DNA from: Xiphophorus maculatus | Taxonomy: Eukaryota > Chordata > Actinopteri > Cyprinodontiformes > Poeciliidae | Direction of reading: 5' to 3' | NCBI RefSeq assembly: GCF_002775205.1 | Contig: NC_036456.1 | Location: 12,861,463 to 12,925,462, forward strand | DNA: 64,000 nt | Shown here: piece after piece, positions 176 to 61,217 of the stretch | Numbering within the stretch: the first letter of the stretch is position 1 | How the letters are laid out: each line of letters begins with the position of its first letter | Notes under the pieces: model-generated | What the model saw: only the letters and a program-made list of their open reading frames with translations | What the model was told of the DNA's origin: nothing | Databases searched by the model: none | Position numbers and translations under genes: made by a program

Positions 176-8653
<8,478 letters not shown>

Positions 8654-11160: not shown

Positions 11161-11724
11161 CCAGCTGTAGCCTAATAGCTGCTGAAGCCTAATAGCTGAC
11201 GTAGCCTAATAGCTGATGTGGCCTAATAGCTGACGTAGCCTAATAGCTGCTGAAGCCTAATAGCAGCTGTAGCCTAATAGCTGCTGTGGCCTAATAGCTG
11301 CTGTGGCCTAATAGCTGCTGTGGCCTAATAGCTGCTGTGGCCTAATAGCTGCTGTAGCCTAATAGCTGATGTAGCCTAATAGCTGATGTAGCCTAATAGC
11401 TGCTGTAGCCTAATAGCTGATGTAGCCTAATAGCTGATGTAGCCTAATAGCTGACGTAGCCTAATAGCTGCTGAAGCCTAATAGCTGCTGAAGCCTAATA
11501 GCTGCTGAAGCCTAATAGCAGCTGTAGCCTAATAGCTGCTGAAGCCTAATAGCTGCTGAAGCCTAATAGCAGCTGTAGCCTAATAGCAGCTGTAGCCTAA
11601 TAGCTGCTGAAGCCTAATAGCAGCTGTAGCCTAATAGCTGCTGAAGCCTAATAGCTGCTGAAGCCTAATAGCAGCTGTAGCCTACTAGCTGCTGTAGCCT
11701 AATAGCTGATGAAGCCTAATAGCT
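11161..11724. repeat. 17-bp minisatellite, about 33 copies
   Basis: Tandem array of a 17-base unit, typically GTAGCCTAATAGCTGCT. Variation is confined to two spots: T/A/G in the GTAGCC start, and GCT/GAT/GAC/GCA around the end. The GCCTAATAGC core is constant in nearly every copy. 564 bases divided by 17 gives about 33 units. Variant types occur in blocks (a run of GTGGCC units, then GAAGCC units), pointing to local unit duplication. Confidence 0.95.
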
Positions 11725-33700: not shown

Positions 33701-34832
33701 TCAGATAACAAATTATAAGCATTCAGCTGATTATCTAGCTTTGATTTCAAAAGAAATTGCTGAAATTTGCTGAAAATTGCTGTATTCGGGTAAAATCTGT
33801 AGAAATAGATGGTGTTTGTTGCCTCTTATGTTGAGCACTTCACATGTTTTTCTTTGAAAACATTTAAAGATATATTTTCTTATCTTTCTCTTTTCCAGGC
33901 AATGGTTTCCCAGATCTGGTTGCTGGCGAAGCAAAGGACCTGGAAAGCAGGACTACCCAGATACATCCCAAACTCAGGTGTGCTGATATGGGTTTTTTTT
34001 ATTCAAATTGAAAAATACTATTAATATATTGCTAATTTATACGTCTAATTTGTGAGCAGTTTGTAATATCTTGTCCTCATGTCTGTTTTCAGTCTGGAGC
34101 TGGATCTGCAGCGCAGCAGGTAACTTCGTTTTTGCTTCTCTCCATCATCTAATATAAAAGCAAATTTAGTCAAGATTGCGGTCCTGGATACTTAATCCTT
34201 TTCATTTTTCCCCGACAGCCGACGTGATTCTCGACCCCATGACCAACCACCCCTGGCTGCAGCTTTCAGACGACCAGCGCAGGGTGCAGGAGGGCCTGTC
34301 GGAGTCGGAGCCCCCAGAGAGCTCCCAGCGATTCGACAGCCTGCCCTGCGTGCTGGGCTGGGAGGGCTACAACAGCGGCCGCCACTACTGGGAGGTGGAC
34401 ATCGCCAACAACGGCTACTGGCGGGTCGGCCTGACCACCGCCAACTCCGAGCGGAAGGGCAACTTCCCCATGACCCCCAAGAAGGGCTACTATGTCCTGT
34501 GGAGAAGCACCCACAACTTCTACGCCTGCAGCAAGCCGGAGACGCCGCTGCCCGCCGCCCTCATCCCGCGGCGCCTCGGGGTTTACTTAGACTACGATGA
34601 AGGCCAGATCTCCTTCTACAACGCCGAGACCAAATCCCACATCTACACCTTCACAGGGAGCTTCGGGGGCAAGCTGTACCCTCTGTTCGCACCCATGGAC
34701 GGCCGCACGCTCATGACTGTCATCAAGCCGCATAAAATCTCTGGAGGCACCGGAGAACCTAAGAAGAAGGAGTTTGTGAAGAGTCCCAAGATGATTAGAA
34801 AGGTGGTGTTGGAAGACGGCACCCAGCTTTAA
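30789..34832 (+). CDS. PRY-SPRY (B30.2) domain protein lacking RING and B-box
   Basis: Nine exons join in frame to 466 residues: 30789-30840, 31093-31238, 32128-32226, 32833-32967, 33075-33194, 33304-33432, 33899-33977, 34093-34119, 34219-34832. The last exon encodes a whole PRY-SPRY domain (about residues 264-450): ADVILDPMTNHPWLQLSDD, then RFDSLPCVLGWEGYNSGRHY, WEVDI, WRVGLTT, LGVYLDYDEGQISFYNA and YPLFAP. Such domains bind protein ligands in TRIM, butyrophilin and related immune proteins. No zinc-binding RING or B-box, signal peptide or transmembrane span is seen, so it is probably cytosolic. The N-terminal half is charged and helical. Similar Trp-centred helices recur at the ends of successive exons (FINHWKEQVDQVCK, LILEWADELRHVDK, IIEWAKELQKATE). 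A lysine-rich linker (KKGPKEEPKEE) is in exon 5. The C-terminus is basic. Function unknown. Confidence 0.85.
31312..31366 (+). mobile_element. Retroposon tail fragment
   Basis: CCCACTGGGGACAAGGGTGT followed by TTAGAAAACGGGTGGATG closely matches the fragment at 46250-46312. The type is a common teleost retroposon 3' tail ending in TGGATG units. Inside intron 2 of the PRY-SPRY gene. Confidence 0.5.
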
Positions 34833-36524: not shown

Positions 36525-39500
36525 TCAGGACTCTCTCTTGCAGGCCCAGGGTCCGAACTCCTCACAGTCTGCAGCAAACAGGGTCCCGCCTCCCCTCAGG
36601 TCTGCACAGTCCCTGTCATCGCTGTCCCACTGCACCGTCAGCCTTCAACACACACACACACACACACACACACGCGTTTATATAATGAAAATAAATCATT
36701 CACTCTTAAGAATGATTATAAATCTCTATTGAGATTGTGGTTATGGAACTATTTATATTAGCCGGATGAAAAATGAAACAGAATCTTATTTTACAACGTT
36801 CTGTGTCTGTATAATAGTGTGTCTTTATATATATATATATATTTATATATACAGTACGTACTGTATGTTTGTTATGATTTTGTAATAAAATAAACATCAA
36901 TGTAAGATATTCTGTGCTTTGTGTTTTACTTTGAGACTAAGTTCAGAGTTTATTTGTTTTGGTGCCTGCAGACCAACACACATTATTATATTATATTATA
37001 TTATATTATATTATATTATATTATATTATATTATATTATATTATATTATATTATATTAACTGAAAAGATCAATGGCTTCTTTTTTAATGAATAAATCAAA
37101 TCTGCAGTAGCTGATGTAATGCAGTTGTTTATGTTCTTAGCGCTAATTTAAAGGGTTATTTTGTTCCTGACACAAAATAATCTTTCAGCAAAAAGTCTCC
37201 AAATTTATTGACACTCCTAACTTAAGATATTTAAAAAGCCTACCATCGTTTGCCCCTATACATATCCATGTTCAAAACGTGATAAATAACTGTGGAGAGC
37301 TCTGTATGGAGCCACTGTAATGTTAGCATTTATCCAACATGGCGTCCTTTGAGTCTTTTCTCTATTAGAAAATTAAAGCAACGTCTCTAATCCATGCAAA
37401 CTTTAAGGTAAAAATGTTCATCACCAGAGTTTGAAGCGTGAATAAATGAGTGAAAGAATCAGCAAGACAATTATTTTTCCCGTTGCATTTCCAGCACTGA
37501 CTTGTTTTGAATGCAACACTTCTGAAGTCATAAAAATACAGCAAGGAAACGAAACTATTGCGCTTGTGTCGGTGCTTTTCATCTACATCATGCGATGATT
37601 GTTTTTAGTTTTACGTGAATTTCATTTCTCCTTTCAGTAAAAAAAACAAAACAACTCTCCCTCTTTGTCTTTTTTGTGTACATAGGACGATTCCCTCATA
37701 GTTTTTATATAAACTAATCTCTACTGTAAACACAGTTATCTATGATTAAAATACCTTGTACTGTAAAAGTTGAAGAACTGAGCAAACCGTAAAGGGAACT
37801 TTTTGTTGTTGCTAAAATATTTTTAGATAAATATGGACCAGGTGATCTTTTTGTTTCAGCCAGAAAGTTCAGACTTACGGTAAGTGGTCCTGGACGTCCT
37901 TCCCATTCAACCACAGCCAGCGTCCTTCCTGCTGGCTGTCCGTCAGTCCCACCCACAGGAAAGGAAATTTGGTGGCATTGCACATAACTCCTTGGAGAAA
38001 ATCCTATATTTCAGGCAAAAGGTAGACTTCTTAAATTTCTTTAGTCAGACAAAAATAAAAGTTAGTATATTTGACATTAATGTACAAAGACTCAGAGGTG
38101 TTTACAGAGAGAAACACAGGGAGAACTGTCCTCAACGCTGAAAAAACACTGTTGCTTTTTAAAGGTAACTTAGGCGGCGTTCACATTGCAGCCCGAAGTG
38201 ACCCAATTCCGATTTTTTGTCAAATCGGATTTTTTGGCCATAGTCGTTCACATTTCCAAATGCGACCTGTAAAGTGTTCCCCAGTGTGAACCGCAGACCT
38301 GAAAGTGTCCTGCATCCCGGTAGGGGGCGCAATAACGTCACACATAGAGAGCGTGCTCAGTGTTTTGACAAACCGCCATACAAAAGAAGTAGTGCTCAGT
38401 GTTTGCGGAAGTAAACGTGGATGCTAACGATTTTGGAGCTGTTGTGCGACCGGAGCCAGCGCAGTAATAACTTAATCCTTATTATAGTCCGCCATGGTTG
38501 TTGTTTAGTGAGAATAGTGACGTTTGTCGAGTGTCAGTGACGTCCAGGTCGGATCAATGCGACCTGGACCTTACGTCACATTTGAATATTGGATATAAAT
38601 CCGACCTTTGTTGTTCAGACTGTCATGAAAAGACCAGATACAGGTCGCATTACGACAAAAATAAATAAATAAATAAAAAATCGGAATTGTGTCACTTCAG
38701 GCTGCAGTATAAACGCAGCCATATTGTTTTTGGGTTCACTGTACTTGACAAATGTGACTATTCTGCGTCCTGACACAGGGGGGAGAAAAACAACAACCAC
38801 GGCTGACTGTAATGAGGATTAAGTTATTAAAGTGCTGCTCCGGTCGGACAACAACTTTAAGATTGTAAGCTATGCTCCAGCATTCACGTTTACTTCTGCA
38901 TACACAGAGCACTTACCTTTTTATGGCGGTTGGGTTAGGGTTAAACATTGAGGACGCTCTCTATGTGTGACGTTATTGCGCCCTCTACTGCGCATGCGGG
39001 ACACTTTCAGGTCGTTTGCAGTTCACACTGGGGAACTCATACAGGTCGCATATATTTGGAAGTGTGAACGACCGCGGCATAAAAAAACAAAAAAAAAAAT
39101 CCGATTTGACAAAACATCGGAATCGTGTCACTTCAGACTGCAGTGTGAACGCAGCCATCTTTGTTTTTGTCTCTCTCCTGTCAGTTACCATCTCTGCATC
39201 GTCTTTGATCACAACCAGGCTGCTGTTGTGCTCCTGGCAGAACTCGGCGCTCTCGTTCCACCGACGGTCTTCCTGGAGTCCAACTGAGAAAAAGTAGCAG
39301 TGCCACCTCCACCACAGCCAGCCTTCAGGACACAAACGGCATCTGGAGTCTTCAGGCGGCGCAGACACAAACAGAACCGCTGAAGTCAGGACAATGTCTA
39401 TTATGCGGCATTTACTGTTGCATACAGATTAAAAATGCTATTGTTTTCTGAGACTTGAGCCAGATAATAAATTATAAACTCACCCTGAGTGGCCAAGTGC

Positions 39501-44779: not shown

Positions 44780-47700
44780 TTACAACTGAGTTGATGGAGG
44801 AATGGTCTCAACGTCATGATAAACATTTCTCCCCAGCATTTTGTTGAAATGGTTTTGTAGCTGCAACAGACAACAAAGGTTAACATTTACCAGACATTCA
44901 ACAAACCTGGGTAAAAGCTAAACTTCAGCTCACCAGCCCAAAGGTTGGCTGACCTACCGCCTCAAATACAGTCGTCCTGGTTTTGCCTTCCTGACAGTAC
45001 AGAGGCTCCTCAGAAGTGCAGAGCATTGACAGATCGATTTCCACTGGATCTACAACTGCAGGACAAATGGAGACGGTGAGAAGCAGAAGCAGGAAGCCGA
45101 ACACAAAGACAGACTCTCATTCATGTGAACAATTTGCATTGGTGTGCAGTTTGCACGCTGTCAGTGTTTGGCCGCCAAGTCCACCAGTCATAAACACTCA
45201 GCCAAACACATCATTTATTCCAGTGATATTAGAGGATTTAAACCTGATCAACAGTTTCTCAGACTTTCTGATGTTTTCCTCTGGACTCTGGATGGTTTTT
45301 ATTTACGCAGTGTTCCTGACCATTACACCATATTGTAAAGAGTCTGCTAATAAAATGAGGAACGTGGATTAAGTAAAAGAAAAAGGACAACATAAAGTCT
45401 ACACTATTGCCAAAAGTACTGGATGCCTCCTCCTAAGAATTGATTTTATGTGTTTCAACCACTTCCGTGACCTCAGGTGTATAAATCCCAGCAGCTAGAG
45501 AGGTAGACTGAGAATCTATTCAACTAGTGAATTTGTTGGTGGCCTTAGGGCAAAGTGGAAGAGATTGGGAATGAGAGCCATTAAAAACAATCAGTCAGTT
45601 GAAGCACAAAGCAAGCAGAGGTCACCCAGCTTTCCATACAGTCATCAGCTAAAGACGGTTTAGTTGGTTTTTAGATTAACTTAGCAACAGTGTGGGTTTC
45701 CAGAGTATAACGGCTACAACCAAAGGACTCTGTAGAGAAATAGAGCTCTGTGCTCCAGAGTGATGGTTGGCATCTCTCTGACCATCCAGTGGACAACTCT
45801 GGGTTTGCCGTTTCCGGTTTTAATTTTGGTGCAGAGGGTTGGATGGTGTAGAGCTGGTTTCAGGAGTTGAACCCTTTGGCTGCAGTGAAAGGAGATCTGA
45901 TGTTGATCATAGCAAATTATTGAAATGACTGGAGAGTTGGGTCGGACTCTCTAGTGCAGTACTCAACTGGTTTGAATATTATCTAAAGAACAGGGATTCC
46001 TGCGTGTCAGAAGGCAACTTCTCATCAGAAAGGACAGAAGTCGCATGTGGGGTGCTTCTACTATTCAAAATCTATATGCTCCCACTAGCTTAGGTTATAT
46101 TAGCCATCAAAACTATGCAGATGATACACAGCTCTACAATACGATGCCACCAGGTGACTCTGAACCCATCCGATCACTGAACAGGTGCTTAGATAGATGT
46201 GTGGATGTGCCACAAGTTTCTCAAACTGAAAAGAAACTAAACTGAAGATAGGCACCAGCACCCCTCCCGACCCCACTAGGGACAAGGGTGTTAGAAAATG
46301 GATGGATGGATGCATGTGGAGAAACTCACCCATGCATTGATTACTGCAACAGTGTCTTCACAAAAAATCAATCAATCAGCTGCAGAACGCTGCTGCTCGT
46401 GTTCTGACTAAAACTAGGAAGACAGAGCACATCACCCCAGTTCTAATGTCCCTACACTGGCTCCCTGTAGCTCAGAGAATAGACTATAAAATACTTTGTA
46501 GCTTATAAATTACTGAACGGTTTAGCACCACAATACATTAAAGATCTGCTGTTGTTGTGTCAACCTTCCAGATTCCTTTGCTCTGCATCCCCAGAACCAA
46601 ACATGGAGAAGCAGCCTTCAGCTTCTATGCACCACAAACCTGGAACAAACTTCAGGAAAACTGCAAAACAGCCGAAACACTGAGTTCCTTTAAAATAAGC
46701 CTAAAACCCCTTGGATTAATAATAACTGGAACATTGATCAACATATCTGATGTGTTTTTGATGATGGCATGTTAATTGCTTGTTTTGTAACAGCTGGAAA
46801 GGAAGGACTAGTATAATAAATCCTAAGTATTAATAATGAGGGAAGACTTTTGGCAATACATCTCACGTAGATTAACGCCATCGGAGGGCCGGGACTTTAA
46901 CTAATCCGTCCATCCCACGGTAACAGGTCCAAAAGGAAAACCCAGACATGACCCTCCTTTACCATTCTTCAGGCTTTCAGTCATGTTGTTCTTTGTGTTT
47001 GTCAATCATATAAAATCTGAAAACACCTTGAAGTTAAAACGTGACAAAAGCTGAGCGAGTCCATGTGGTTCAGCAAGGCACTGCATATTTGAAGATTCTG
47101 ACCTGTTGTCCCATTGCAGCTTGCTGGATCACTTGTCTTGTTGTCACTCACAGTGGACACATTAAAGAAGTATGTGCTTCCTGACTTCAAGCCAGTGAAC
47201 GTGCACATGTTGGTGTTTCCAACGTTTTGGGGGTGGAAGTAATGCCAGAATGAAGAGTTGAGGGTGCAGGTGTAGTTTGTTGCTGATGAGTTTTCTGGGG
47301 GAGTCCACTCAAAGGTGAGGGAATCTTTTGTGCTGCTGTGCACTTTAGCTCCAGTGGGAGGCACCGGGACTGAAGGCAGAAAGAAAAGGCCACTTACATC
47401 CCGTTAAAAACATGTTATAACAAAATGTAGAGCCGTTTTCTGAGCATGCAGTCTGTGTTTAGTAATGATCAAATAAAATCAAACTCACGGGTGTAAATGG
47501 AGGAATTCCTTTCTGGGCTTTCCAGATTATTAAGAACTGTATAGACCTTCACTATGTAGTTGGTAGCAGTTTTCAGGTTATCAAATTCCACACTTTGAGC
47601 CGATGTGTTTTTTGATTCCTTCTCTTCGCCATTCAAGAAAAGCTTGGCTCTAAAGGTTACATTACTTCCAGGATTTGGAGTAAAGTCCCATCTAGCGTTA

Positions 47701-50700
47701 ACAGCTTTGTGTGTTGCTGTCAACTTCAAATTCGAGACCGGGCCCGGAGCTGTTTATAAGTGAAAAAGTCAGATTAATGCAACAGAATTTGCCATAAAGA
47801 GTCTCTAAATAAATTAATCAAGAGTTACCGGTGTATGCAGTGATGTTTACAATATTTCCCTCCAGGCCACAAACGCCCAAGACTTTCACAAAAAGGCCAA
47901 GCTTAGTGCCGTTTTGGAGGTCGGACACTCTCACTTTATATGGTTTGGCCAAAAGATTTGTTGGGTTTGTCACCGTAGCATTCAGGTCCCTGTTACGAGG
48001 CAACACACTTGAGAGTCAAAGACTGTCCTGAAACAACTGGTTAACAGATGTTAATCATTGTGCTCCTTTTGTGTTGAAAAACACAACGGACAAGAACATG
48101 AAAGCAGCAATTTGTAGAGTTTGGTGAACGGAGACAAATTTAATATAGGAACATAAAGGGGACAAACCTGTAGTCATCCCTGGCCATCACTTTAAAGCCT
48201 ATGTAATTTCCCTGTGGCGGATCCCACTGGAGATTTAAGCTTGTGTCCTTGTTTTCAACAGCTTCCAGGTTGGACACTTGGCCGGGCCCTGAAAGAGAGA
48301 CAGCGGGCTGTTATACAACGGACAAAGCTTCTCTTTGTGTTTGCCGAAGATGAAACCAAATAGAAGCAGGCGGGTGACATGGTCCGCATGAAATGTGGAC
48401 GTAATTTGCCTTTTCAGATTTGAATGTCAGATAGCGTCTGAAGGAAACGGGGAGCTGGGAAGTTCTTGCTCATTTCCCCCTCTGAACAGTACGGATGTAA
48501 ACTCACGGGTGCAATTTGAGATGCTGACGTTCTTACTCCACATGGACCTGCCTTCGACTCCTGTGGCGAAAATGAAACTGTACTCGCTTCCCTGCGTCAA
48601 GCCACCAAACACCATGTCTTCTCCCTTCACGCTCTGGTTGTGTTTTTCAGTTCCCAAAGTTGAAACAGCGATAACTTCGAAGAAGCCATAGTTCCCTTCG
48701 GGTTTCTTCCAGCTCAGACTGACGGTGGTTTCTGTAAAATCGGTCACAGTGAGGTTCTGGACCTCTCCAGGTACTGAAAGGAGGAAACAAACCCAGCGTT
48801 AGTTTTTTTTCAGGTTGTCTTTTGTCTTAGTCACATTACAGGTACATCAGCTACACTTTGAGCCGCCTCGTCTTTGCTTTGTAGAACAGTAACAGTATGT
48901 ACCTCAGTGGGTTCACAAGATGTAACAGCGGCAGCAAAACAAAAACAGACATGCTTTGCTTCATTAAGTGGAGACAAATGCACATTATGTGCCTAAAAGG
49001 TGGCTTTAAAATATTAAAATAATAATTGGGTATTCCTCTGCAAAAAATGAAACTCTGGAGCCGAGCTAATGCTGTGTAAATAACTCACAGTGAGCAGTAA
49101 ATTAAATAAATCCGTATTTCAAAATCACCACACAAACCTTCTCAGGTTTAGGGAGCAATTTTTCACCTGGGCTAAAAATGGTTTGGACGGATTTTTTCTG
49201 TTGTTAAATGACGTCACCATCTGTTTTTTTTTCTGTTTACTCAGGTTATCCTAGCCTTGTACTAAAGTTATCTGATCTAAATCAATTTGTACTCAAGATC
49301 CAGACTAGATACTTGGTTCTTTAGCTTTAGTTTTGTCGGACTTCTGCCAGGAATCGTGGTGTCATCTTTGATAGTCTGGATCATTTTAAATCGCTTCTCA
49401 AAACTTATTTTTATTCGTTGCCGTTTAATTAAGGCCTGGCCCTGTAACTTTTCTGTTGTGTTGTTTCTCGTTTTGTTAGTTTTTTTAGGTGCTGGGCATT
49501 ACAGCAAAACAGTTCTCCTTAAGCCTCCTCGTATTTATTAGTTTATTTTAAAATCAGAATCAGTGTTTAATCTAAGACACCAGAAACTTTCTCCCATGGC
49601 GTTTGGCTAAAGACAGTAAAACCAAACATTGTTCCAGAAGTCTTTTAGTTTGTTTGGTAGATTTGATTTTAAAAATTAAAAATTACACCATCTTGTTCTT
49701 TTTTTGGGGGGGGAGGAGATATTGCTGTCATGATTCAGAAACAAAAGCAGAGCTCACAAAATTCCTTAAAGACAAGAAGAACATATTCAAATTCAAAGAA
49801 CTCATTAACCCTCATTATCTTCTCTCCAATAATCACAATAATCACTTACTGGTGTAGAAGGAGCCATTGAGTGGATTGAGGTCCCTTTCACACTTCACTG
49901 CAAATACTTTGATAATGTAGCCGGTTCCTGGGGTGAGTTTGACGAGTGTGTAGCTCAAATTATACATGTCCATGGTGACGTTCCAGGAATAGTCACGGGA
50001 AAACGCCTCGAAGCGATAGTGGCTGATGTCACCGGGCCCCTGATCCCACTGCAGAGCTGCGGACGAGGATGTGATGTTGGAGATGTTGATGGCCCCCATG
50101 AAGCGGTCTGAAGGCAAAAAACAAGGTGAACAAAAGCTGGCAGATTTAGGCCAATAGGGAGAACATGTGGAACGGTGACAGGAAAACATGGAGTCACAGC
50201 TCCAAAGTCGAAGTTAATTTTACTGATTGAGTTTAGAATGAACGAACAAGATCTTGAAATCGTTGAACCCAAAGTTGTGGCTTCGCTAATGAAGAAATAT
50301 TCTTCACCTTCCAGCTTTCTCAAAGAGGAGCTACAGATAGATGGACATGTTCTCACTTTGCTTACTGGTCACCTCACTGAAAACATTTTGTTTTCAGGAC
50401 AACAATCCAATCTGTTTGGACCGTTTCTCACAGTTTGCTACTAAAAACAAGTTTGCATCTATTCACTTGCTTTATCAATTTCTTCTTCTTCTTGTGCTTT
50501 TTAAAAATGTTTACAGTCACAAAATTTCAGCGTGTTACAATTATGGTGAGAAATGAGTAGGCGGTAAACTAATAATTTAGATACTGCTAAGCTATTAGCA
50601 GTTACTCATCATTTTAAATCAAATAATTTGATGAACTTTCCCTTCTTGTGTCAAGAATTCTTCAAATAAATCACTAAAAGTCCAGAATTGCTGTAATTCC

Positions 50701-53700
50701 AGCTCACTGAAGGTTGAATGACTGACCAGAGTGGTAAAACCTAATCACTTTCTAAAATGTCTGTAAAGCTCTTAATCGTTTCCAGGCTATATCGGTTATC
50801 TTATAATGTAACCGATTAGCTTATAACCGGCTACATCGGTTACGAGTCAATCTTCTGGCAAAATACCAGAAGATTGTCATAATTTTTCTTTATTGTGCCA
50901 ACATTCGTAATTGCTGTGCCCTCCAGTTTTCACACTAACTGCAGAAGCTGTTGTACCTTCATAGCAAATGAAAGGCAGCTTTTCAAAGCACCCTCTCTCA
51001 ATCCAAGGCCCAAAGGCCAGTATGACCACACATGAGTTCTCGATGTAGTTTTTGTTATTCTCTGGTATGATGGGAGGCAGCATGGGCGATCGTTCGCATG
51101 TTGAAACTATCGGCAGCTGCGGTGTGGTCGTCCACGGCGAATCTGTGGTGTGAACTGCGTGAGCTGTGGTGGATTCCCACGCCTGGGTGATGTTGGCTCT
51201 TCTTGTGAAGTTGGCTCCTTGGGTGAAGTTGGCCCCTTGGGTGAAGTTGGCCCCTTCTGTGGCGTTCATCGGCATGTCCGTATCGGTTTCAACGTCATAA
51301 AAACTGGTAGAGTCGGTCATGTTTTCATAGACGTTGGTCACTGTGATGTTTGGTTCTGTTGAGTCTCTGGTAGAGTGTTCGGGGACAACGGAGCCTGTTG
51401 GGAAGCCCGTTGTCGACCCGGTAATCGACGGACTCGTCATACTGGGGGGCGAGGGGGTCGTCGTCCTGGGGGGTGCCGGGCAGGTGCAGGAGCAGCTGCA
51501 GCAGTCTATTTTTGGCAGCGGGGATTTGAACAATGGGAAGCCGGGGTACCAGTTCTGGAAGACGAGTGGGTCCCCGTTGGCCCACAGTGTCCAGGGCGTC
51601 CCGAAGCTTTTAGACGAGGTGTTGGTGGAGTTGGTGGAGTTGTAGTAGTCGTAGTCCGAGTTGTAGTCGTAGTCATCGGTTTCGTTGTAGGTGTCATTGT
51701 AGTTTATGTACTTGCGAAGGCCAATCCAGTGGGTGGAGTTGATTATTTTGGCGATGACGTGGACGTTTTGTGGCGTGAGAGTCACCATCTCTTTAAAGCA
51801 GACCTGAGCAGACATGGAAGACATAACTGTGTTCTCAATAAAGTGACATTAAAGCTTCAACAAAAACAAAGATTAAAACCCAAGAATGTGGTCAGAGTGA
51901 GACTTGGCGTCCTACAAACACTTCAGCAAATATGGCAAAAGAATGTTGATGGCAACAAAAACCATAGCATCTCGCAAACAATGAATAAACCCTAATAAAT
52001 TCAAATGTTTGCACTAAACTTGTTTAAAATGAAAATAGAGGAGGTGCTGTTTGGCTATATTGAGTCTGAGCTGATAACAGAGTTACATGTGGGCTCCAGC
52101 CGCCTTTTAAATGCAAATTATGTGCAAATATTTTTCAAAAAATGCGTGACAGCCAGGGAGTATAAAAATAAAATTTAAAAAGTACATAAAAAGGAAGTTT
52201 TTTAAAGGACAGTTACGACTACATTTATTAACCGCTAACGGTTAATGACAAACCAATCAGGATTTTAGCAAATTTATGAAGTTTTAAAATTAAACATCTT
52301 CTCAATCTTAGTTGCCCTGAACTGATGATGTTTTATACGCTAAAGCAGTAACATTTTCTCATTTGCTTCCAGAAGCTTCTTCTGTCAGCATTTAGGTCGT
52401 AATGGATATACGACCTAAAAGCCTCTTTCATAAAAATGTTTCAGTCATAAACTCGTAATGAAGTCAGGTGTGATGAAGCTCTGAGCCATGAGGAAGTAAA
52501 GGTTTGTCTTTTAAGCAGTCCTAATATCTTGTTGGGGTTTTTTCTGTTGTTTTTTTTTAAAAGCAGACAGAGAAGCAATACACAGATGTTTTTTTGTTTG
52601 TTTTTTTAAAAAACAAAACATCTGTCTATGACATAACTTTAAAACAAGGCAACTTCTTGAAGAAAAACATCAGTTTCCTGAAATACAGGCATGTATCGGA
52701 AAGATCTACTTTCCAATTCTGACATTAAAGTAAAAAGCAACCTCAGGACAACTATTAGTAAGCCTGTCACTATAAGCAATAAATCAATTAATCGAATGAT
52801 TGATCTATCAGCTCAGTCATTTCCATGATAGTTTTTTTCCTCTCTTTTTCTACCAAACACTGAATGAAAAAAGGTTTCAGTCTGGTGCATTGGTCTCAAC
52901 GGGCTCCCTGTTTTGAAGGATAATTTTTGTTTTTAATCAATCAATCAAATTTTATTTGTATAGCACATTTCAGCAGCAAGGCATTTCAAAACTGAACTCA
53001 ATTCAGGTTTTTTTTTTTTGATATTTAAAACATCTTCCAGTTCCAGAGTTAAATGTCTGCTGGAAATGAAAGCTTAATCATCTTTGTGAGCAAAGATGAC
53101 TAAGCTCATCTTTACTTGTAGTTGTACTACTTGAAATTAGTCCCAAAGCAACATTATTGTTCACAACTTTTTGGGGGGACAATTTATCATCCAGAAAAAT
53201 TTGTTATTGTATTCATATGGTGCTGGAATGAAACGCAAAACCTTTTAATTGCCCTGCTAATCTGTTGCTTCCAGCTGGACGCTTCAGAAAGTTTCTGGAG
53301 GTAATCTCAGGTTCGGTCGTACCTGGCAGTGGTTCCTGGCGTCAGCCCAGCTGGCGTTGCGTGGGCCGATGAAGTACTGTCTCTCTGCAGCCGTGCACAT
53401 CAGCAGAAGACCTGAGAAAGACAAAAGCCTGATTTAGTCATGGACGGATGTTTACATGACCAGGAAACATCTATTTGTTTTTGGTACTCAATTATTTTAG
53501 ATTATAAATAGCCATACTGAACTCAGGTTAAAAGGTAAATTAAATAAAAAAAAATACAATTCCAAGATTGAAATACATCACTTCAAAATGTTACAAATCT
53601 TATTCAAAATAATTTTACTTGAAGTAGAAAATTAGAAATTAACCAGTTTTAACTTCCTGCCTACTGGAATCATATAATCGGCAGATTAATCATATTGAAA

Positions 53701-53783
53701 AGCCTAAAAACTTTCCAAAAACAATGGTACTCACCCCAACAAACAGAAATACACAGTTTATGTATGAACGTTAAGTTCCCCAT
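44780..53783 (-). CDS. C-type lectin domain (mucin-inserted) plus five fibronectin III domains, receptor-like protein
   Basis: Eleven minus-strand exons join to 832 residues with every phase matching: 53735-53783, 53324-53412, 50957-51803, 49850-50107, 48507-48773, 48168-48288, 47829-47989, 47489-47749, 47103-47369, 44958-45055, 44780-44860. The start (GCCACCATGG) opens a signal peptide, LTFIHKLCISVCW. A C-type lectin domain follows: WADARNHC, THWIGLRKY, PWTLWANGDP, NWYPGFP, GCFEKLPFICYE. It is split by an Asp/Tyr/Asn-rich insert (about residues 79-110) and a Cys then Ser/Thr/Pro-rich mucin-like insert (about 137-300) with NFTQGA repeats. Five FN3 domains follow, rich in N-glycosylation sites; domain 3 alone is split over two exons. 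The tail has LYCQEG, NVYHDVE and ends STQL. No kinase or phosphatase domain is seen. In this splice form no transmembrane span follows FN3-5, but an in-frame one can be added. Family not recognised; FN3 part resembles receptor phosphatase ectodomains. Confidence 0.75.
45935..46790 (+). mobile_element. L2-type LINE fragment (reverse transcriptase remnant)
   Basis: Plus-strand frames, broken by stops, give NWFEYYLKNR, then YADDTQLY in a second reading (the catalytic YADD box of reverse transcriptase). After an interruption come IDYCNSVF, YKLLNGLAPQYIKDLL and TKHGEAAFSFYAPQTWNKL. These are the conserved C-terminal blocks of L2/CR1-clade LINE reverse transcriptases in the right order. The element is truncated and dead. 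Confidence 0.75.
46250..46312 (+). mobile_element. Retroposon tail inserted in the LINE
   Basis: CCCACTAGGGACAAGGGTGT, TTAGAAAATGGA and a TGGATGGATGGATG tail interrupt the LINE coding order between its YADD and IDYCNSVF blocks. Same tail type as at 31312. Confidence 0.6.
49250..49560 (+). mobile_element. Possible LINE 3' fragment
   Basis: A frame reads RNRGVIFDS and, soon after, DHFKSLLKTYFYSL, resembling two separated blocks near the end of L2-type reverse transcriptases. It sits in an intron of the lectin-FN3 gene. Weak. Confidence 0.3.
52930..52995 (-). mobile_element. LINE 3'-end fragment, reverse orientation
   Basis: CAATCAATCAAATTTTATTTG followed by TATAGCACATTTCAGC is the reverse complement of the very common teleost LINE 3' end (a GCTATACAAATAAA-type tail with TTGA units). 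Confidence 0.55.
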
Positions 53784-54901: not shown

Positions 54902-57900
54902 CTAGTCGCTGTCGCTTCCCCCCTTCAGCAGCCTCTTCCCACTGGAGGGCGCAGGAATCTCCTGTTTTATCTTGGGCCTAAAGGGAAAAGAAAGAAAACT
55001 TCATTGAACACCGATAAACATATCTTGTTCTCATCTTCATTTGTCATTGTGGTTTTTCCTGCAATAAAGTTATCTAGATCAAGGGAGCCCAACTCCAGTC
55101 CTCTTAACTCTTGGGAGTATCCCCTCTAGCGAGTCATTCAACTGATTCAAATGGTGGAGAAAGAGAGGCATCTAAAACCTGCAGGGTAGTTTAGAGCTTT
55201 AGGACTGGACATCTGATCTACAGTGTTCAGGTTATTCCTGCTGTGATCAGACACATTTCAGCACATCAGCCTCTAGTTTTTGTGTCCGCTTTTGTACAGG
55301 TTTCCATTTCTAAACTTCCCAACCCAAATGTATCAATTTTTCCAGCATTTTTCATAATATTCTAGACATTCAAGGCAAATGAATGGAAAGGTGAGGGGAA
55401 AGTTGAACTGCAATATTCACACTTTCTGAGTAACTCAGTTTGTGTCATTTTTAAACAAAAATTAACTTTAATTTGCCCATTTATGTTAAACGCCTGTGTG
55501 TGGTGCTTGTTTCGCCTCTTTCCTCAACTGCGACTGAAATCCTGACCTGAAGGAAAAACCTCGTGAGCTGCATCGTAACTGATGTAACCAAAGTCCAAAG
55601 ATAGTTTCAGTGTGTAGTCTACGGGACTTTCCTTACCCCGTTTTATCCATCAGTTCCAGACCGTCGTTGAGGCTCTTGAACCACAGATAACGATTACGGC
55701 CCCGGATCTGCAACAAAGTTAGAAAGTAAAAAAGTTACTTCATTCATCCTAATATTGTGATGTCATCCAGTTGCAGAAACAGGCCTTACAGAGAGAGTGT
55801 AAATCTCCTTGTCCTCATCCTCTCCACTAGAGGCAGACTTGGACTTTTTTGCGGTGGAGGTATCTGGAGCAGGAGCGCTCTCTAAAATGAAGAATGCTCA
55901 TGATAAGCGACAGATGGAATAAAACTTTAGTCTACTATACATACATATAAAACAATTTAAAAGCATACTTCTTTTCTTCGTCTGCTTAGTCCCACTTTTT
56001 TCCAGGTTTCCTTCCTCTGTCTTGCGGTCCCTGCCTGGACAGGCACAGACACGGACCTCGAAGCACCGCCTGCCCAACACCTCCCCCCTAAAGTTAAACA
56101 ACACCAAAAGGAAAAAGGTTTAAAAAAAAAAAACAACAAAAAAAACACATCAAAAGCTAAAAGAGAAATGAGAAATGTCTTTCAAATATATTCAAATAAA
56201 CCTTAACATGATGGTGGACTCCATTTATCAGCTTTAATAACATAAGACCCAAACCACTACAACTAACATCTTATGTACCAACAAAGACGGCGACTCACTC
56301 TGTGGTCTCCAGGGTCAGGATGGTGAGGATGGGCCTCCGGTTCATGCCTCCCATGCAGGAGCTGTTGCACATAAAGCTCAGAAGGATTGTGGTCATCTCG
56401 GATCCCAGCTGAAACAAGAAAACCGTACGCATGAAAAACTTCCTGGAGTCGTCAGATAGACAACAGTATATTTTGAGAAGCACCGATTTACTAAATGACT
56501 AATTGTAGCATCATAACTTTCCATTACTTGCATGGATCAAAGTTGTCTCATTTAGTCAAATATTCCCACATGCATTCATGTTTAGAGAGCCGATTTAACT
56601 GAATCTGTTTTTGTTTATAAAGCTCTGATATTTATACTTCTAAACTTAAAAATAAAAATCCTGCCTGTTTAATAAAAAGCTTAAAACTTTCTCTATAATT
56701 TATGCTGGTTCTTTTTCTGAGGCCCTGGACAAATCAGATTTAGTAAATCCAGAGTAAAATTAACGTCCAGAATTGTAAATAACTAGAATCCATTTTTTCA
56801 GATTAGACATCTGATCATGACTTTTAGATTAGAATTCTTTCACACATTTAATAAAATCTCCCATTAACGTAATGCACAAAGTGTAGAGTGATTCTCTCTG
56901 GGATACCTGTGGGCGTTCGTAGGGCACGGTCACGCTGTGCCTCCTGGTGTTTGGGTCCTCAAAGTATTGCGCCAGCTGGCTGCCCTCCACTCTGATCAGG
57001 TGACTCTTGTTGTCAGACACTGAGAAGAAGATTGCAGATAAAAAGCTGAATATTTCCACCTGTACATCACAAACAAACAAATACAACTCTTTAAAGGAAA
57101 AAAAGCTCCTTACAGTCTTCACTTTGGTGGTGTGGGCACCTCTTAACGACTTCTCCCACATGTTCAGTCTTCTTGTATACTGCAGTTGCTCTAATGACGG
57201 CACCCTGCGGAGGCTCCTCCTTAACCAAAACTCCAATTGGAGTCGTTTTTGCCAGCTGGCAGAACAGCTTCCCAAGTTTAACTGAGTACTAGCGAGACAG
57301 ACACAGGCATTCCCATCAGTGGTGCTGCTTACCAATGTGGATTCTGCTCACCAAAAACTTTACAACCTTAGCAAATTCTACCCAAACTGTTTACTAATCC
57401 TTGGTTCCAAAGAATTGGAGAATCGTTCCATCTCTCTCACCAAAAGCTGAGATAAATCAAACTTCTTCGTCATTTACTTTCAGCCCTTTCTGTTCTGAGG
57501 GACGCCTCTGCAGGAACATGTCCCGTCATGTCAGACCTGTGCATGGCAGCCGAGCTGCTCCTCTCACACAGCAGAGTACCGGTCGCAGGGGGGCGGGAGT
57601 TTCGCTCCAGACCACCCTAACTTCAGCTGAACCGGCCAACCGTGAGCCAGAGGCGATCAGTCAGTGAGGAAATACAAATGCCATTGGTTGGTTCAGGGCA
57701 GTGTCGGCCTCCGACCCTTAAACTTTAGCAAATCGCCACAATGAACGAGACACCGCCTGAATGCCACCGCAAGAGATTCGAAAGAATGGATTTTTGATGC
57801 GGAATCAAGGTAAGAATTTTTCTACACTGTTAATTTACAAAGTTTTAAATGGTTTGTGGCACTAGATAAGAATGTTTTAAATTAAAGCTTTTTCCTGACA

Positions 57901-58700
57901 GCTGAACTTTCATTTACTAAATTAAAATGAAGTAGTTTGAGCTTTGAAGAGGTTTTGTGGAGGGAAAGAGCGATATACAGAAATGTGGTGCTATAGAAAG
58001 CTCCTTTGTCTCAGATTTGAGGCTCCTTTCTGCTCCTCATCATGTTTGGTTGCAGAGAAAAATGTCCCAAAACATATAGTTTTTCAGCTAAAGTCATTTC
58101 TTATCACAAATTTAGAAAAAAAGGTTTCATATTTATAGGTTTTATACGTTATGGTGGGTTTGTACAGCTAAGATTTCAACAGATTAAAATGTGGAAAAGA
58201 AATAATGAGCAACTTACTGTGGAGGTGACACTTTTAGCTGTGCCCGAGTCATTAAATTCGAGATTGAACCCATGCTCCCCAGCATAATTAGAAATCGCTG
58301 GGACAGTTGGTGCAGTGGGCACATTTTTAGTTTCCTGCATAGTTTCCGGATCCTCCCAAAAATCCATATTTTGACTCTTTAAAAAAAACAAAAAAAAACA
58401 AAATGAAAAACAGAATTACCACAAAGAAAGGCTGAATCAAACTATATCCTCTTCATTTAATTTGATAAGTTTAATCTTTACTTTCTTCGCATGCTTACCA
58501 ACAATCCTTCTGGGGGGGGCAAAGACTCATTCTCAGTCGACAAAAACCTGAAAAAGCAAACGTACAAAGCTTAGTTCAATCGTAATCAAGTTAACATACT
58601 TTTAAATCGCCATGTAGAGTGAAAATGATATTTACACATTGTTCCATAAGTCATGGAAGGTGTCCTGACTCAAAGGCAGTGTGAGATCCGCCTCCTCCAT
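54902..58700 (-). CDS. tp53: Tumour suppressor p53
   Basis: This transcription factor halts the cell cycle or triggers apoptosis after DNA damage. Ten minus-strand coding exons join in frame to 342 residues: 58636-58700, 58499-58547, 58218-58376, 57114-57288, 56907-57019, 56299-56408, 55969-56087, 55790-55881, 55637-55707, 54902-54977. The N-terminal MDM2-binding helix reads TFHDLWNN (Phe, Leu, Trp present). The DNA-binding core has [16 protein letters not shown]-like [19 protein letters not shown] (zinc cysteines and the Arg248 equivalent) and [13 protein letters not shown] (Arg273 equivalent). A KKSK-type nuclear signal follows, then a tetramerisation helix, [19 protein letters not shown], and the C-terminus GGSDSD. 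All key contact residues are intact and no frame break is seen. The start follows a splice acceptor (58712), so exon 1 is non-coding, as usual for tp53. Confidence 0.98.
55081..55225. mobile_element. Decayed hAT-like MITE in a tp53 intron
   Basis: The left end GAGCCCAACTCCAGTCCTC and the right TTTAGGACTGGACATCTG resemble the inverted ends of the hAT-like MITEs in capg. An internal GAGGCATCTAAAACCTGCAG block supports this. Lies between the last two tp53 exons. Confidence 0.5.
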
Positions 58701-60520: not shown

Positions 60521-60920
60521 AGAGAGCCGACTGCTGTGCGCAGGACCAGCTAACATGGCTACCCAATGCTAAAGCGATCCAAGATGTTTTTCAATCCCGG
60601 TACCGAAGGCATAAATGTTTTAGGTAGGAAAACCGTGTTTGGTGACTGACTTTTATGTCTGTCAGGCTTAAGTGACAAAAGCTGGAGAAAGACCGATTCT
60701 CTTGGCGTTTAAAATAACACAAAACAGCGTAATAAGACCTCGTTTATTTAATTACTTTACAATTTTGTAAACAACAGCTGTCGATTAAACTGAATGTTAC
60801 AACCTTGACATGGTTATATGAGTTGTTTTTACCGAGAAATCGATCAGAAGCGCCGTGGAAATGATCAGATCCGTCTGATCCCGCCTCTCTGGCTGCAATG
60901 CGCGCTCCCGACACCAGGGG

Positions 60921-61217
60921 GGACAGATTTTCACAGCGGGAACAGATTTTCACAGGGGGGACAGATTTTCACAGGGGAACAGATTTTCACAGGGGGAACA
61001 GATTTTCACAGGGGGGACAGATTTTCACAGGGGAACAGATTTTCACAGGGGGGGACAGATTTTCACAGGGGGAACAGATTTTCACAGGGGGGACAGATTT
61101 TCACAGGGGGGACAGATTTTCACAGGGGGAACAGATTTTCACAAGGGGGAACAGAATTTCACAGGGGGAACAGATTGTCACAAGGGAACAGATTTTCACA
61201 GGGGAACAGATTTTCGC
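60921..61217. repeat. 18-19-bp minisatellite, 16 copies
   Basis: Tandem unit ACAGATTTTCACAGGGGG with copy-to-copy differences mostly in G-run length (so unit length drifts between 17 and 20) and A/G at the junction. I count 16 copies of the ACAGATTTTCAC core or its one-base variants. It starts about 550 bases upstream of the tp53 promoter. Confidence 0.93.

Follow-up and report, generated by a model that had tools for sequence, protein, structure and literature searches.

A C-type lectin-like domain with a mucin-like segment in its long loop, followed by five FN3 stretches, in a predicted gene of Xiphophorus maculatus

A predicted gene of the fish Xiphophorus maculatus appears to encode a non-canonical C-type lectin-like domain (CTLD) followed by five FN3 stretches, and the loop in which related domains bind sugar is occupied by a long mucin-like segment. 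On balance we lean towards the reading that the product is probably secreted and that this loop now serves as a glycosylated spacer or ligand, an explanation that holds whichever CTLD group the domain is assigned to. The gene lies on the minus strand of a 64,000-nucleotide stretch of DNA (the window; contig NC_036456.1, positions 12,861,463 to 12,925,462). The whole analysis is based on this one genome sequence, from which the exons were inferred.

The gene was modelled as 11 exons (53783-44780, -) encoding 832 residues in an uninterrupted reading. All ten introns are GT-AG with compatible phases, and their donors and acceptors score 3.7-9.1 and 6.1-13.3, respectively, against untrained consensus matrices. 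Exon 1 (53735-53783) has a start codon whose surroundings (GCCACCATGG) are Kozak-like and encodes the first part of the signal peptide, recognized by eye and hydropathy, while exon 2 (53323-53411) contains the end of the signal peptide, the start of the CTLD (RQYFIGPRNASWADARNHCQ) and the first canonical cysteine. The remainder of the CTLD, including two inserts (insert 1 and insert 2), is encoded by exon 3 (51803-50957, -); the first-pass annotation had described this as a single open exon of 847 nt, and indeed it is bounded by AG and GT sites, is entered in phase 0 and left in phase 1, and has a stop-free frame. FN3 stretches follow in exon 4 (49850-50107), exon 5 (48507-48773), exons 6 and 7 (48288-48168 and 47989-47829, read as a single FN3 that an intron interrupts), exon 8 (47489-47749; 23.5 bits alone, just under the cut-off of 25) and exon 9 (47103-47369). 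Exon 7 by itself has no Pfam match, and the joint reading of exons 6 and 7 comes from the Pfam fn3 profile, which finds five stretches in the joined chain (145.4 bits). Exons 10 (45055-44958) and 11 (44860-44780), which supply the C-terminal 59 residues and the stop, are the part of the model held with least certainty; a Pfam search with these 59 residues gave no match.

Inspection by eye and hydropathy predict a signal-peptide-like N-terminus, and from the motifs of the product we infer secretion as well as N- and O-glycosylation. Beyond residue 30, hydropathy gives no segment that would suggest a membrane anchor (the highest mean over 19 residues is 1.39), and an anchor may have been missed, since the C-terminal exons are uncertain. 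Missed transmembrane exons are named as the most widespread error of EnsEMBL models in excerpts of a survey of Fugu CTLD genes (PMC514892). Immediately ahead of exon 10 lies an in-frame hydrophobic stretch (45053-45113, -). A transmembrane reading of this stretch, at 45113, was rejected by reasoning that it is probably the pyrimidine tract belonging to the acceptor of exon 10, with which it coincides; an alternative acceptor there would encode a membrane-anchor-like segment. In ten minus-strand frames checked between 35764 and 46357, no domain reached its Pfam cut-off.

A frame with heptad repeats (7478-8653), located at the window's left end, was named from its repeat, and we take it to be POLR2A. 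Immediately upstream of the lectin gene, and on its strand, lie exons for a P53 DNA-binding domain (~55898-58415, -); of three frames tested there, two match P53 (E 5.6e-16 and 2.1e-12), and the frame at 58176-58415 gave no P53 match. POLR2A and TP53 are neighbours in human as well (17p13.1). The window also holds the start of another C-type-lectin-like gene, NK-receptor-like by eye (38985-39428, -; WNESAEFCQEHNSSLVVIKDDAEM; just 15.6 bits against Lectin_C, short of the cut-off), a TRIM- or NLR-like PRY-SPRY (B30.2) exon (34170-34832, +), a minisatellite with 33 copies of a 17-nt unit (11164-11724) and a tandem array with 15.9 copies of a 19-nt unit (60915-61215). As 19 is not divisible by 3, this array yields similar repeat peptides in three plus-strand frames.

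The Lectin_C profile (PF00059; curated cut-off 22.6 bits) matches the uncut CTLD (exons 2 and 3) above its cut-off, at 26.7 bits in two stretches; the complete 832-residue chain (19.1 bits) and the exon-3 frame alone (21.1 bits) score below it. With cut points chosen with the CTLD pattern in mind, excision of insert 2 in silico gave 38.0 bits, and excision of both inserts gave 42.0 bits in one match to profile positions 3-106/107. Against the PDB, the uncut CTLD found eight sequences at E up to 1, all weak, the best being CD23, and the insert-free core found 99 distinct sequences at the same limit; the CD23 chain 5lgk_E scored 15.6 bits (E 0.077) uncut and 37.0 bits (E 3.2e-8) once the inserts were removed. 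Landmarks of the fold are present, with WIGL at residue 72 and canonical cysteines, placed by the PDB alignments, at 45, 304, 318 and 326. Together with the extra Cys 48 and six in the insert, residues 45-326 hold 11 cysteines in all, and at least one may therefore be free or intermolecular.

The motifs of the sugar-binding site have been replaced. At the EPN place the CTLD reads GFP, with Phe instead of Glu (CD23 has GEPT there, an MRC1 domain GEPS), and at the WND place, in the alignment with CD23, which retains WND, it reads WIE; EPN or QPD together with WND is the combination looked for in Ca2+-dependent sugar binding. According to excerpts of PMC7618208, canonical CTLD sugar binding proceeds only through Ca2+ site II with motifs of the EPN/WND type. 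With both equivalents replaced, glycan binding via the canonical site is ruled out, and this loss is independent of the insert, because the core itself lacks the Ca2+ and sugar motifs. An earlier suggestion that the insertion could turn a glycan-binding domain into a glycan-displaying one thus survives in part: the segment does occupy the loop of a CTLD that scores above the cut-off, is mucin-like and is probably coding, but the loss of the sugar site needs no insert. Glycan display by the insert-bearing CTLD can nevertheless be reasonably proposed from its sequence. That non-canonical residues still allow the domain to bind sugar or Ca2+, with the insert acting as a lid, strikes us as very improbable; CTLDs can bind many ligands outside the canonical site, as the same excerpts state (PMC7618208), but here the EPN and WND equivalents are both gone.

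Insert 2 (51063-51533, -; residues 137-293) breaks the CTLD between NWYPGFP and ENNKNYIENSCVV, with a boundary that is ambiguous by 1-2 residues because both ends have a proline. The first-pass annotation had placed an insertion of about 160 residues between NWYPGFP and GCFEKLPFICYE; its size is close to the 157 residues found here, but a SCVV strand separates the insert from GCFEKLPFICYE, and the insert accounts for 157 of about 180 residues in that interval (167 lie between NWYPGFP and the Cys of SCVV). The description of this segment as Cys-led and Ser/Thr/Pro-rich, with N-X-S/T sites and NFTQGA-type repeats, was accurate. After ten residues comes the sequence CCSCSCTC, with five clustered cysteines, and one further cysteine (282) lies close to the end; S and T make up 30% of the segment and P 13%, giving 43% S+T+P vs. 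22% in the remaining model. Seven sequons are present vs. a shuffle mean of 2.1 (fraction at or above the observed count 0.00045; 20,000 shuffles). Part of the insert is an 18-nt in-frame tandem repeat of GANFTQ-type units (51184-51256, -), for which Tandem Repeats Finder reports 2.9 copies of the 18-nt unit at 51205-51256 and a 36-nt row at 51184-51256. Four NFTQGA-type units can be distinguished, the fourth being degenerate and called by eye. Mucin domains consist of S/T/P-rich tandem repeats with dense O-glycosylation; the repeats of insert 2 are units built around an N-sequon and not S/T/P units. The sequon enrichment is due in part to the NFTQ repeat, as collapse to one unit leaves four sequons vs. 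1.3 (0.018), and sequon density does not distinguish insert 2, since the remaining chain is sequon-rich too (24 per 584 residues vs. 8.7; equalled in none of 3,000 shuffles). Searched alone, insert 2 gave no match in Pfam and none in the PDB at E up to 0.1. In sets that contain no fish genomes, a search for relatives gave two pattern matches in viral contigs and 18 in prokaryote genome contigs, of which none was confirmed. Structure prediction of exon 3 from the single sequence returned a mean pLDDT of 34.7, too low to be informative.

A second, smaller insert, absent from the first-pass annotation, lies in the same exon. Insert 1 (51603-51698, -; residues 82-113, 32 aa; NDTYNETDDYDYNSDYDYYNSTNSTNTSSKSF) is rich in Asp, Tyr, Asn, Ser and Thr and is situated between WIGL and WANGDP, motifs that are separated by 44 residues. 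It contains five sequons vs. a shuffle mean of 2.0 (fraction at or above the observed count 0.0096) and six tyrosines, each with two to five acidic residues within five positions. An acidic context of this kind is where tyrosine sulfation can occur, and sulfation of insert 1, guessed from that context, is possible.

These features can also be read as the outcome of passive low-complexity expansion, through slippage and relaxed constraint, of a loop that has lost its function, in which case the insert would be tolerated and not selected. This is the main rival to a glycosylated spacer or ligand, and we regard it as a real though distinctly less probable account. It would fit the 18-nt tandem repeat, Ca2+ motifs that are already gone, the rise of the sequon fraction from 0.00045 to 0.018 upon collapse of the repeat, and the occurrence of two low-complexity inserts in one domain. 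The repeat constitutes only part of insert 2, however, and the insert as a whole is ordered, with a Cys cluster at its entry, an S/T/P block, a sequon block and a Cys near its exit, all in an open frame.

Composition and codon usage bear on whether insert 2 is translated. Its true frame is open and the other five carry 2-10 stops, and its GC content (56%) lies within the range of the exons (37-62%) and above that of the ten introns (28-47%). With 3,267 nt from the POLR2A frames and the FN3 exons of the lectin gene as training set, insert 2 has codon log-odds of +0.16 in its own frame and below zero in each of the other five; the exon-3 lectin core scores +0.24, and two 471-nt intron samples are negative in all frames. 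Among 5,000 first-order random sequences matched to exon 3 in composition, none stayed open in frame; for insert 2 alone, 78 of 5,000 matched sequences were open by chance, which counts against its coding status. Codon bias and composition nevertheless speak for coding sequence rather than a retained intron, and insert 2 is probably coding.

That some part of exon 3 is instead an exonic or retained intron appears unlikely, although the exon contains 168 in-phase GT-AG pairs at least 60 nt apart. The top-scoring of these pairs (51785/51555, -; 231 nt; donor 6.3, acceptor 8.5) outscores the exon's own donor (3.7), but its use would remove WIGL and insert 1 and destroy the domain, with insert 2 still in place. 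Within insert 2, the top pair (51442/51062, -; 381 nt) would leave a short Cys-rich loop. Its acceptor (6.5) falls in the range of the gene's own acceptors, but its donor (2.6) scores lower than any of the ten donors in the model, its GC content is 54% vs. 28-47% for introns, and its codon log-odds are positive in the true frame only. Because the donor of exon 3 itself scores only 3.7, score alone is no ground for dismissing either pair. No in-phase GT-AG pair in exon 3 spans all of insert 2, and exact excision of the insert as an intron was rejected for want of such a bracketing pair.

Among known proteins, the closest in domain content is CFN3, listed as ‘Protein with CTLD and FN3 domains’ in the 2004 Fugu survey of Zelensky and Gready (PMC514892), a fish protein that, to judge by its table entry in that survey, likewise combines a CTLD with FN3. 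The earlier statement that no described family has this layout must accordingly be narrowed: the pairing of CTLD and FN3 is already known, and it is the inserted loop itself, with a mucin-like insert in a CTLD long loop, for which a search of open-access literature found no description.

Assignment to the mannose receptor family (group VI) was considered, as PLA2R (9.6e-18) and MRC1 (2.3e-14) lead by whole-chain E-value among the best 60 of the 99 PDB sequences matched by the insert-free core; these values sum several CTLDs per chain. Within the same 60, the best single PLA2R CTLD reaches 32.1 bits (i-Evalue 1e-6) vs. 39.4 for CD23 and 37.6 for aggrecan, which are the best one-CTLD chains (6pwr_A, 6e-9; 1tdq_B, 2.1e-8), and these single-domain scores, which favour CD23 and aggrecan where the whole-chain values favour group VI, led us to drop the assignment. 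Known members of group VI have tandem CTLDs, at least eight of them, according to excerpts of the Fugu survey (PMC514892). The lectin-gene product has one CTLD and then five FN3 stretches, in contrast to the many CTLDs of PLA2R, MRC1, MRC2 and LY75, and nothing comparable to insert 2 is present in the three mannose receptor alignments shown. The loop insert is likewise absent from the CD23 alignments seen, and both CD23 and aggrecan differ from the lectin-gene product in their other domains. To our knowledge, group V CTLDs are type II membrane receptors with neither FN3 domains nor a mucin-like loop. Like the domain described here, these NK-receptor-type CTLDs are without the canonical Ca2+ motifs and do not engage in Ca2+-dependent canonical sugar binding, as stated in excerpts of PMC7618208.

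The same excerpts describe the long loop region of CTLDs as highly variable and mention a suggestion that it evolves as an independent part (PMC7618208). By its sequence, the long loop of the predicted protein has been expanded in frame by the Cys-led, S/T/P- and sequon-rich segment of 157 residues, part of the expansion arising through duplication of the 18-nt unit, and the smaller Asp/Tyr/Asn-rich insert sits past the WIGL strand. In the account that we favour, both inserts would project from the loop face as flexible, heavily glycosylated arms, the bases of which are perhaps stapled by disulfides. The CTLD would then serve as a spacer or ligand that carries glycans, or as a shielded module for binding proteins, instead of as a Ca2+-dependent lectin. 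A more specific version is a glycan antenna, in which a domain that has lost its sugar site uses the former binding loop to show a Cys-stapled, mucin-like arm alongside a second, potentially Tyr-sulfated arm, a former receptor domain having become a ligand for other lectins. Mucin ligands of the PSGL-1 type, with a Tyr/Asp-rich stretch and an S/T/P-rich region, recall the two inserts; PSGL-1 itself is not a CTLD. We consider the antenna version doubtful.

Should the loop prove to be a product of lineage-specific slippage, the finding would have little importance beyond annotation. If the insert is both translated and conserved, it would indicate that a CTLD can accommodate in its long loop a flexible, glycosylated segment larger than the insert-free core (157 aa vs. 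113 aa) with the landmarks of the fold kept, and the gene would provide a test case for the conversion of a binding domain into a ligand-presenting domain.
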